The position numbers and the translations under genes are program-made. From positions 682,001-746,000 of the forward strand of contig NZ_CP099993.1 in assembly GCF_024138125.1 (NCBI RefSeq): a stretch of DNA of 64,000 bases, read 5' to 3'. The stretch comes from Halorussus salilacus (GTDB lineage Archaea; Halobacteriota; Halobacteria; Halobacteriales; Haladaptataceae). The notes under the pieces are model-generated. The model ran no database searches. It was given only the letters and a program-made list of their open reading frames with translations, and was not told where the DNA came from. Positions 8,213 to 51,699 of this stretch are shown here, in pieces (the stretch's first letter is position 1; each line of letters opens with the position of its first letter).

Positions 8213-8434
8213 CTCTCGGAATCCTGCGCGGCGCGGCACTTCACCCCACGACCCGAATAGCAATCATTTAACTACCTCGGGCCATTCCTCCTGAACACGG
8301 GAACAGCACAGCCGCAAATCTGACTCGCCGGGCGATTGCTCGGCTCGGGATTGCGGACGTGCACGCGTCAGACCGACGCACCGCACGCCTACACTCAAAG
8401 CGACAGCGGTCTGTGCAGTTCCAATCCAGAAACC

Positions 8435-24157: not shown

Positions 24158-24191
24158 ACCGACCGACGACCGACGAGACGACCCACCGGGG

Positions 24192-24508
24192 GGGACTGAA
24201 AGGGGCCGCCCGCTCGCGGTCACGCGAGGGAAGCGAGTGTGACCTCGGGAGACGCGGTTTGTCTCCCGGCGTTTACGTGGTCGTCTCAGCGACCCCTATC
24301 CGAGCGAGCGAGGATATATCGCTGAGCGGCCTCCTCGTGAGCGAAGTCTGCGCGAGCGAAGCGAGCGCAGGCTCGTCGGAGCATGCTCCGACGGTGCGAA
24401 CGAGGGCTCGGCAGAGCGGAGCTCTGCCGGTGGCGAGCGGGCGGGGGCTTTCTGGGCGGGCTCGTTCACGGACTCTGTTTTTCGTAGCGAGCGGGCGGGG
24501 GCTTTCTG
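24192..24508 (+). repeat. Family A dispersed element, copy 1 (expanded form)
   Basis: It begins GGGACTGAAAGGGGCCGCC and ends in two copies of GCGAGCGGGCGGGGGCTTTC. The internal stem is CAGCGAC/ATCGCTG (24287-24293 with 24318-24324), then CCCT opposite AT, then ATCC/GGAT. Compared with copies 2 and 3 it carries extra hairpins, for instance GTCGGAGCATGCTCCGAC and GGGAGAC...GTCTCCC. It is oriented like both flanking genes (epimerase, arginase). No credible reading frame is present. Confidence 0.85.
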
Positions 24509-43103: not shown

Positions 43104-43201
43104 CTCCGGCGGGAGTGACGTGACCACCGGGTTCGGAGACGAATCGCCCGTCGAGACCGACCTCGGGAATCGTCCGATGAACCATCCGCCGAGAACCGCC
43201 C

Positions 43202-43300
43202 GGTGACACAGTCCACCGTGAAACGGCCGGTGACACAGTCCACAGGAAAACGGCCGATTGCGCAGTCCACGGGAAAACGACCGGTGACACAGTCCACCAT
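43202..43300 (+). repeat. 27-base tandem repeat at the 5' side of family A copy 2
   Basis: Four units (about GGTGACACAGTCCACCGTGA plus AACGGCC) with a few changes. The same array, inverted, borders family A copy 3 at 51607-51700. Confidence 0.88.
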
Positions 43301-43530
43301 CGGGTGGGACTGAAAGGGGCCGCCCGCTCGCGCTTGCGTGGTCGTCTGGCCGACCCCTATCCGCGCGCGGTTTGCGCGGATATGTCGGCCAGCGACCGCG
43401 AGCGGGCGGGGGCTTTCTGGGTGTTAGTCGTGGAGTGTTCGCAGAGGGTTCGTAGCGAGCGGGTGGGGGCTTTCTGGGCGTTCTCGGTTTTGGAAGTGGT
43501 AGCTCGTAGCGAGCGGGCGGGGGCTTTCTG
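43202..43530 (+). repeat. Family A dispersed element, copy 2
   Basis: Array 43202-43300, then a 65-base block shared exactly with copy 3, then the internal hairpin GGCCGAC-CCCT-ATCCGCGC / GCGCGGAT-AT-GTCGGCC (43348-43390). A second shared block follows, with three GCGAGCGGG(C/T)GGGGGCTTTC arms. It fills the gap between the UPF0212 and GNAT genes and has the same direction as both. Short frames through it have no coding support. Confidence 0.88.
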
Positions 43531-43610
43531 ACGCTTCACGACTCCGTCCTGCAGATTCCCTCTCGCATCGTACCCGAGTCTCTATCTTGACTTCCAACAC
43601 CCGAGAAAGG

Positions 43611-44764: not shown

Positions 44765-44812
44765 GCCCAGAAAGCCCCTGCGTGCTCGCGGTCGCACAGG
44801 CCCTTTCAGTCC
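44765..44812 (-). repeat. Family A element, minimal hairpin form
   Basis: On the minus strand it runs GGACTGAAAGGGCCTGTGCG, then ACCGCGAGCACGCA, then GGGGCTTTCTGGGC. It keeps the outer GAAAG/CTTTC pairing and a GCG-based stem but lacks the long internal stem. It lies in the divergent gap between dodecin and YchF and is co-directional with dodecin. Confidence 0.75.
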
Positions 44813-44830
44813 GACCGACAGCAGCGCGAC

Positions 44831-44983
44831 CGCGACCGCGACCGCAGGCCTCGAACCTCCCCAGCCTCTTGCGTTTCTCGGTCGCTCACTACGTTCGCTT
44901 CCTGCGATACTCATCCCTCGCGCGTGTCGGCGCGGCCGTCGGTCGCTTCGCTCCCGACGACCGCGCCAGCACGCGCCGGGCGG
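44831..44983 (+). repeat. Family B dispersed hairpin element, copy 2
   Basis: It contains ACCGCAGGCC, CCTCCCCAGCC, CTCATCCCTCGCGCG and CGCGCCAGCACGCGCC. The terminal hairpin arm is GGCGCGGCCGTCGG (44929-44942), matched with one mismatch by CCGACGACCGCGCC. It occupies most of the gap before YchF. Confidence 0.8.
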
Positions 44984-51362: not shown

Positions 51363-51699
51363 GAAAGCCCCCGCCCGCTCGCTACGAGCTACCACTTCCA
51401 AAACCGAGAACGCCCAGAAAGCCCCCGCCCGCTCGCTACGAACCCTCTGCGAACACTCCACGACTAACACCCAGAAAGCCCCCGCCCGCTCGCGGTCGCT
51501 CCGGCGGATATTCGGCGCTCTCCGCAACGCCCGCGCCGAATGGAGCCGCCGGAGACGACCACGCAAGCGCGAGCGGGCGGCCCCTTTCAGTCCCACCCGA
51601 TGGTGGACTGTGTCACCGGCCGTTTTTCGGTGGACTGTGTCACCGGCCGTTTTCCCGTGGATTGCGTCACCGGCCGATTCTCGGTGGACCGTGTCACCG
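51363..51699 (-). repeat. Family A dispersed element, copy 3
   Basis: Read on the minus strand, it matches copy 2 exactly across the GGGACTGAAAGGGGC block and, with one mismatch, across the following 3' block. In between it has the different hairpin CCGGCGG-CTCC-ATTCGGCGC / GCGCCGAAT-AT-CCGCCGG (51501-51552). It is oriented like its flanking genes and carries the 27-base array at 51607-51700. Confidence 0.9.

Follow-up and report, generated by a model that had tools for sequence, protein, structure and literature searches.

A dispersed hairpin repeat of haloarchaea with labile extra 3' arms that look like local tandem copies

Results

Organization of the element upstream of the acetyltransferase gene

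The window considered here is a stretch of 64,000 nucleotides of Halorussus salilacus DNA, and the features discussed are collected in Table 1. Upstream of an acetyltransferase gene lies an intergenic element in which a single 5' arm beginning with GAAAG is followed by three arms complementary to it. A sequence-only reading of the region had described this arrangement, and its coordinates proved to be off by at most about 3 bases. The arm counts given there for two other copies in the window, two in copy 1 and three in copy 3, were likewise confirmed, and both linkers between the arms are letter-for-letter identical in copy 3 and in the present element (copy 2). The word GGGGGCTTTC occurs 8 times in the window, each time within one of these three elements, compared to 0.27 occurrences expected from base composition. 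The first hairpin folds far below shuffled sequences (z of -5.8 as RNA and -6.8 as DNA).

Table 1. Features of the hairpin element and its relatives, in window coordinates
Feature	Position	Strand	Evidence
Copy 1: core with additional inserted sub-hairpins, two 3' arms	about 24188-24506	+	core match 24254-24348, E 7.5e-5
Upstream array of ~27-bp degenerate repeats, core GGCCGGTGACACAGTCCACCG	43185..43292	+	repeat search, spacing 27, 27
Inverted repeat CAGTCCACC-ATC-GGGTGGGACTG, 5' foot	43290..43312	+	sequence and fold
Single 5' arm GAAAGGGGCCGCCCGCTCGC	43312..43331	+	sequence, repeats; P1 pairs covary between copies
GGG of near-invariant GGG/GGG symmetric mismatch, partner 43410-43412	43317..43319	+	counts over 63 copies
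Inner core	43332..43397	+	alignment and pair counts, 63 copies
3' arm 1, closing main hairpin	43398..43417	+	sequence, repeats, fold
57-bp unit: linker and 3' arm 2 (43455-43474; one base different)	43418..43474	+	arm comparison
54-bp unit: linker and 3' arm 3 (43509-43528)	43475..43528	+	arm comparison
Non-conserved tail, last arm to core promoter of acetyltransferase gene (GATTAAG...ATG)	43529..43605	+	comparison with relatives
~8-kb inversion with respect to congeners, ends at copies 2 (+) and 3 (-)	43530..51360		gene order
Fourth, minimal copy: outer stem, short core	44770..44813	-	E 0.0079
Copy 3: arms and linkers as copy 2, inner hairpin different	51363..51594	-	sequence comparison

Each of the upstream repeats of about 27 bp contains CAGTCCAC, which is complementary to GTGGGACTG in the hairpin foot. 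Words like CAGTCCAC were found 74 times within the 150 nt upstream of 96 copies in the source genome, compared to 16 times on the opposite strand and once for a reversed control. On the downstream side, comparison with relatives demonstrated that the core promoter of the acetyltransferase gene is conserved and that the tail between it and the last arm is not.

Structure of the hairpin and identity of the folded strand

The core of the element is a hairpin of about 115 nt with fixed bulges. Its outer stem, GAAAG-GGG-CCGCCCGCTCGCG paired to GCGAGCGGGCGG-GGG-CTTTC, encloses a short bulge or an optional small hairpin, followed by a second stem (P3, GTCG/CGAC) with a one-base bulge and by P3b; beyond these lie an asymmetric internal loop, an invariant UAU/AUA, the distal stem P4, and the terminal loop. 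We aligned 63 copies that had been picked for a complete core of the main type. In this alignment 97.6% of the cells are paired, compared to 33-51% in slid controls. Changes on both sides were found for 25 of the 42 pairs, and double-changed cells number 214, compared to 58 in shuffles. Covariation exceeding that of shuffled and slid controls is expected of a structured noncoding RNA, and a structure in single-stranded DNA would show it too. The three positions of the GGG/GGG mismatch, at the foot of the stem, are G-G in 62, 63, and 61 of the 63 copies, while the neighboring pairs vary freely.

Not all copies share this core. Five of the 102 copies compared combine the same outer stem with a different inner core (GTAAGCACCG...GAGGAGCACAG), which was seen at loci L019, L023, L047, L055 (+1508), L286, and L287; words resembling it recur in the plasmid noncoding stretches of L339 and L345. 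Some other copies have almost no inner core.

Wobble pairs are rare, making up 1.0 and 1.6% of pairs in two alignments, compared to 9.1% in 13 tRNAs (predicted structure). G.U nevertheless exceeds A.C by 24 to 9 in the first alignment and by 50 to 6 in the second (an independent one of 82 distinct rows), the latter having been fitted by an RNA model that itself favors G.U over A.C. In the first alignment the loop-side pairs contribute 10 of the 24 G.U, and without two loop-side pairs the ratio is 14 to 9. The excess of G.U over A.C suggests that it is the plus strand that folds, either as RNA or as single-stranded DNA; the support for this assignment is statistical and not strong.

Copy number, distribution, and placement of the family

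The element is present in about 100 dispersed, intergenic, non-coding copies in the Halorussus salilacus genome. A search with the element itself, in which 40 of 182 candidates were scored, returned at least 54 genomic matches; a search with the 15-base foot, allowing up to 2 mismatches, found 121 places compared to 6 for a reversed control; and a covariance model gave 102 matches. For comparison of copies, 83 loci were fetched, yielding 102 distinct pattern matches, a few of which are chance matches to the pattern. By the covariance model 17 of 18 genomes of the genus are positive, with 0 to 147 copies per genome, as are 26 of 28 at the level of the family. Across the Halobacteriales, 81 of the 195 genomes sampled and 29 of 66 genera had a match, with at most 18 candidates scored per genome. 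The named hosts among the matches listed are mostly relatives of Halorussus, Haladaptatus, and Haloarcula; three records among them carry bacterial names and are presumably chance matches.

No Rfam family matched the element at its gathering score, the only hits in the window being a tRNA and an S15-Halobacteria ribosomal protein leader (RF03143) at positions 8297-8362, and loci L024, L017, and L055 and the plasmid loci gave nothing near gathering. A viral origin was considered and rejected, as there was no match in 50,697 phage records and no exact match to the pattern in IMG/VR contigs. The literature searched, including the available portions of PMC3733652, PMC3119063, and PMC13107129, does not name this element. 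This family of dispersed haloarchaeal hairpin repeats is real and apparently undescribed.

Placement relative to genes was determined for the 97 copies that could be placed, using calls from a simple codon-usage gene finder that had not been benchmarked. None of the 97 lies inside a predicted gene. In spaces between tandem genes, 43 copies are aligned with transcription and 13 are reversed; divergent genes flank a further 22 copies and convergent genes 15, and 4 copies have only one neighbor in the stretch fetched. The distance from the last arm to the start codon of a downstream gene on the same strand is mostly about 90 to 150 bp. The bias of 43 to 13 hints at a role linked to transcription, although such a role is not needed by the explanation favored below.

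Recombination among copies and evolution in concert

The inversion of the segment between copies 2 and 3 was called from relatives having both gene pairs on the stretch fetched. In these, the HTH gene comes after the DUF555 gene, and g51711, read backwards, comes after the acetyltransferase gene. At the same two sites, the intergenic lengths are 538 and 439 bp in the source genome and 74 and 37 bp in G009, which has 0 copies; genome G012 has elements at both sites, and G013 and G003 have degenerate ones at one. The linkers and upstream repeats of copies 2 and 3 are identical, the repeats of copy 3 running on to about 51700, and the cores of the two differ. This is as expected of copies that recombine, and the inversion ends at these very copies, indicating that copies of the element recombine with each other.

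Dispersed copies also evolve together. At stem pair 18/124, 64 of the 96 copies examined in the source genome have C-G and 9 have G-C, whereas in the congener G001 G-C is found in 32 of 46 copies and C-G in 8. This opposite bias in two species demonstrates concerted evolution of the copies within a species.

Several additional modules were noted next to the hairpin. The minimal copy at 44770-44813 is preceded by a second repeat module, here called B (window 44770-44960, minus strand). Module B (GAGGGATGAG...GCAGTCGGTTGGGGAGG...), which looks structured too, lies directly 5' of seven listed hairpin copies, including those at L011, L036, L045, L064, L082, and L083. A third upstream module (CTTGTCTTTCGACTTCCCACTCGCTCCGCTCGC) takes the place of the 27-bp repeats at L020, L032, L042, L075, and L081; L032 and L081 are 97% identical up to the 5' arm of the hairpin and then diverge, in the manner of recombinants.

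A plasmid-borne form of the hairpin

Matches were found in 23 plasmid records, 13 of them from Haloarcula. In all 12 of the Haloarcula and Salinibaculum plasmid copies inspected, a divergent gene starts about 490-630 nt from the hairpin. A strict TATA word is present in 9 of the 12, lying about 262-265 nt 5' of the hairpin in eight and 378 nt in one, and two more read CATATAAA at the TATA position. At these 12 loci (L337:4720-5200 and 11 more), on plasmids such as pNG500 of Haloarcula marismortui (locus 88671-88794), a conserved noncoding stretch with a TATA box ends in the hairpin and is divergent from a putative OB-fold gene. The identification of the neighbor is based on weak OB-fold matches, below the curated cut-off, for five of the neighboring proteins. 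We rejected the OB-fold gene as a general partner of the hairpin: it has matches in 99 of 195 genomes, but its close relatives are restricted to one genus apart from genome G191. In 7 of the 12 loci fetched the hairpin adjoins this gene, the other five (L360-L364) being weaker or truncated forms at which it does not. Repeated AGTCCC words lie 3' of the plasmid hairpin, and these may be coding on the other strand.

Judged from sequence, a natural guess is that the plasmid stretch is a candidate noncoding RNA gene. It would then be possible, if unlikely, that the hairpin forms the 3' domain of a promoter-driven, hitherto undescribed noncoding RNA carried on plasmids, short promoter-less descendants of which have colonized Halorussus chromosomes in about 100 copies, a history broadly like that of SINEs descended from small RNAs; copying between sites would keep these descendants alike within each species, and they would trail spare arms arising in tandem. 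Consistent with such a descent are the near-constant distance of the TATA word on most plasmid copies, the conservation of the stretch between TATA word and hairpin in the 8 plasmids aligned, and the asymmetry of wobble pairs in favor of the plus strand. Against it, the alignment of the plasmid stretch revealed only slight covariation outside of the hairpin (covariation term +3.13; 13 of 138 pairs), the chromosomal copies are without a comparable TATA box by the strict test, and the 1.0-1.6% of G.U among pairs is low for a functional RNA when set against the tRNA value.

Origin of the extra 3' arms

For the extra arms, the sequence-only reading had offered two explanations, remnants of tandem insertion or alternative pairing acting as a switch. 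Our data favor the first, in the form of local tandem duplication; the second is physically possible, but it is not conserved.

Arm number varies widely among copies. Of 102 copies, 62 have one arm, 17 two, 11 three, and 7 four, with none recognized in 5; in a longer view of 96 copies, 60 have one arm, 18 two, 11 three, 2 four, and 5 more than four. Most repeat units measure 54 or 57 bp. Arm spacings are for the most part divisible by three (76 of 98 unique units, from several genomes, with a missing G added back), and we therefore considered a protein-coding array, which was rejected since every frame has stops and the best frame stops in 15 of 76 units. The units are near-identical inside one copy and differ between copies, and tandem duplication is for this reason better supported than a switch.

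Tandem duplications on either side of the hairpin would also be compatible with a purely mutational origin of the element, in which a long inverted repeat without function has its arms kept complementary by correction through template switching. The rarity of wobble pairs (1.0-1.6%) fits such a process. Correction of arms alone, however, would not be expected to maintain the near-invariant unpaired GGG/GGG, the bulges, and the UAU/AUA, nor to generate the asymmetry of G.U over A.C, and the spread of the element over 29 of 66 genera also argues against this reading, which we regard as quite improbable.

A switch would have the 5' arm, within a transcript that comes from the upstream gene or from the element, select among the 3' arms and thereby alter termination or expression downstream. 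When the 5' arm was forced to pair with arm 1, 2, or 3, the RNA energies were within about 1-6 kcal/mol of each other for 3 of 5 transcript ends; for the two longest stretches, arm 3 was worse by 9 to 22 kcal/mol and arm 2 was best or close to best. Among 71 multi-arm elements the preferred partner was a later arm in 36 and arm 1 in 34, with 1 undecided. Alternative pairings are thus nearly isoenergetic, which makes a switch physically possible. In keeping with a switch, extra arms fit the 5' arm of their own element more closely than they fit shuffled partners, in both groups, retaining the stem variants specific to each element, and the orientation bias in tandem gene spaces (43 to 13) is also in its favor.

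The comparative data point in the other direction. Single-arm copies are the majority in both counts (62 of 102 and 60 of 96). Orthologous sites were compared between the source genome and G001, for which 46 of about 90 copies were fetched; 13 pairs share both flanks in the same orientation, and three more pairings are reversed, coming from sites with two opposed elements. Arm number differs at 10 of the 13 sites, at a core identity of 34 to 91%; variation in arm number, one of the two observations that the sequence-only reading had named as counting against its proposal, is thereby largely borne out. We also followed which sequence the extra arms track, using 62 elements with 87 extra arms, after excluding any element whose arm 1 mismatches at over 3 of 12 positions, as well as any extra arm with over 6 mismatches. 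Arm 1 fails to pair with the 5' arm in 18 cells; of these, extra arms carry the letter of arm 1 in 12 (10 elements), the complement of the 5' arm in 5 (3 elements), and neither in 1; the number of elements is small. Furthermore, the 22 of 97 copies between divergent genes would not be expected to receive a read-in transcript, and a strict TATA box 60-420 nt upstream was found in 0 of 95 copies. We therefore consider a switch to be very improbable. The extra arms look like local tandem copies of the 3' side of the hairpin that are still able to pair, and the trio of arms is an eye-catching but labile feature of the family.

Discussion

A probable mobile-like repeat evolving in concert

The explanation that we favor, and hold to be probable though by no means certain, is that the element belongs to a family of dispersed haloarchaeal hairpin repeats that are mobile-like, evolve in concert, and act through the plus strand, the extra arms being transient tandem copies. 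Copies would spread and be overwritten by copying between sites. The long hairpin may promote slippage or template switching that duplicates a segment of the 3' flank together with the 3' arm, and the extra arms would be such tandem copies, gained and lost rapidly. Multi-arm copies would be structurally ambiguous since the extra arms still pair with the 5' arm; selection for this ambiguity was not seen. The stem with its GGG/GGG and fixed bulges may be kept because some factor recognizes the folded plus strand, either a protein that acts on DNA in single-stranded form or a partner that binds RNA.

With respect to mobility, no mobilizing enzyme was found; by eye, the four stretches between close pairs of copies contain ordinary-looking ORFs and none of the transposase type. 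The inserted block, of about 370-500 bp, is not sharply bounded, and no target-site duplication was resolved. Compared to MITEs, the GAAAG...CTTTC ends are inverted, and neither a matching transposon nor a duplication was seen. The compact sites in relatives could be losses of the element.

A family with up to about 150 copies per genome and no evident transposase offers a handle on how hairpin repeats spread and are homogenized in archaea. The element also marks sites of rearrangement in haloarchaeal chromosomes, such as the 8-kb inversion described here, and the Haloarcula plasmid form, with its candidate promoter and conserved neighbor gene, represents a testable candidate noncoding RNA.

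Comparison with known systems

ROOL, GOLLD, and HEARO are large structured RNAs of plasmids and phages. The Haloarcula form, and only that form, resembles them in being a long noncoding stretch that is conserved on plasmids and has a candidate promoter; the comparison was made via Rfam only, in which the element has no match, and the chromosomal copies differ in being short and promoter-less.

The right end of IS608 is laid out as a guide, a hairpin, and a complementary site, an order resembled by that of the element. The least probable of the readings, and a very doubtful one, is that the hairpin is a single-strand signal like those of IS200/IS605 elements (REP, PATE), a folded end for a Y1 (HUH) transposase in which GAAAG is the guide, CTTTC the cleavage site, and the extra arms spare cleavage sites; Haloquadratum PATEs, described in the available part of PMC3119063 as palindrome-bearing relatives of IS605 elements, lend it some plausibility, but Y1_Tnp is absent from G001, G003, G005, and G008 despite their 90, 103, 61, and 64 copies, its presence in 15 of 28 genomes is unrelated to copy number, and six Y1 loci that were fetched gave no hairpin match (one at E 0.52).

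The mobile-like repeat that we favor has its closest parallels in other high-copy repeats. The SMRs and PATEs of Haloquadratum walsbyi are likewise mobile-like, transposase-free haloarchaeal repeats present in high copy, the PATEs carrying palindromes, and the mode of spread of the SMRs is called enigmatic in the portion of PMC3119063 available. According to the same portion, SMRs have short terminal inverted repeats and PATEs near-terminal palindromes, whereas the element described here is, as a whole, a single long stem whose internal loops are conserved and in which compensatory change is pervasive, and no link to IS605 was found for it.

The Rep-Arvir origin of haloarchaeal viruses, as given in the accessible part of PMC13107129, has a 22-nt hairpin downstream of rep and is similar in being a conserved hairpin near a gene on haloarchaeal extrachromosomal elements; here, in contrast, a 110-nt hairpin lies upstream of the OB-fold gene, and the phage records searched held no match.

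REP, BIME, and REPIN sequences, which occur with RAYTs, are also dispersed intergenic hairpins (PMC3733652 and PMC3116915, as far as the available parts of these extend), sometimes in inverted pairs, as the present element is at L059, L289, and L290. REPs are described in the former as palindromes of 20-40 bp with a GTAG or CGTC tag. The element is at least about 115 nt long, has GACTGAAAG at its foot, and has a copy number unrelated to Y1 genes. Membership in the REP/REPIN class was rejected on the basis of this stem and foot, and of the absence of Y1 (RAYT) genes from four copy-rich congeners. Pairs of opposed hairpins around a short spacer, an arrangement similar to that of REPINs, were observed at L289, L290, L279, and L059.
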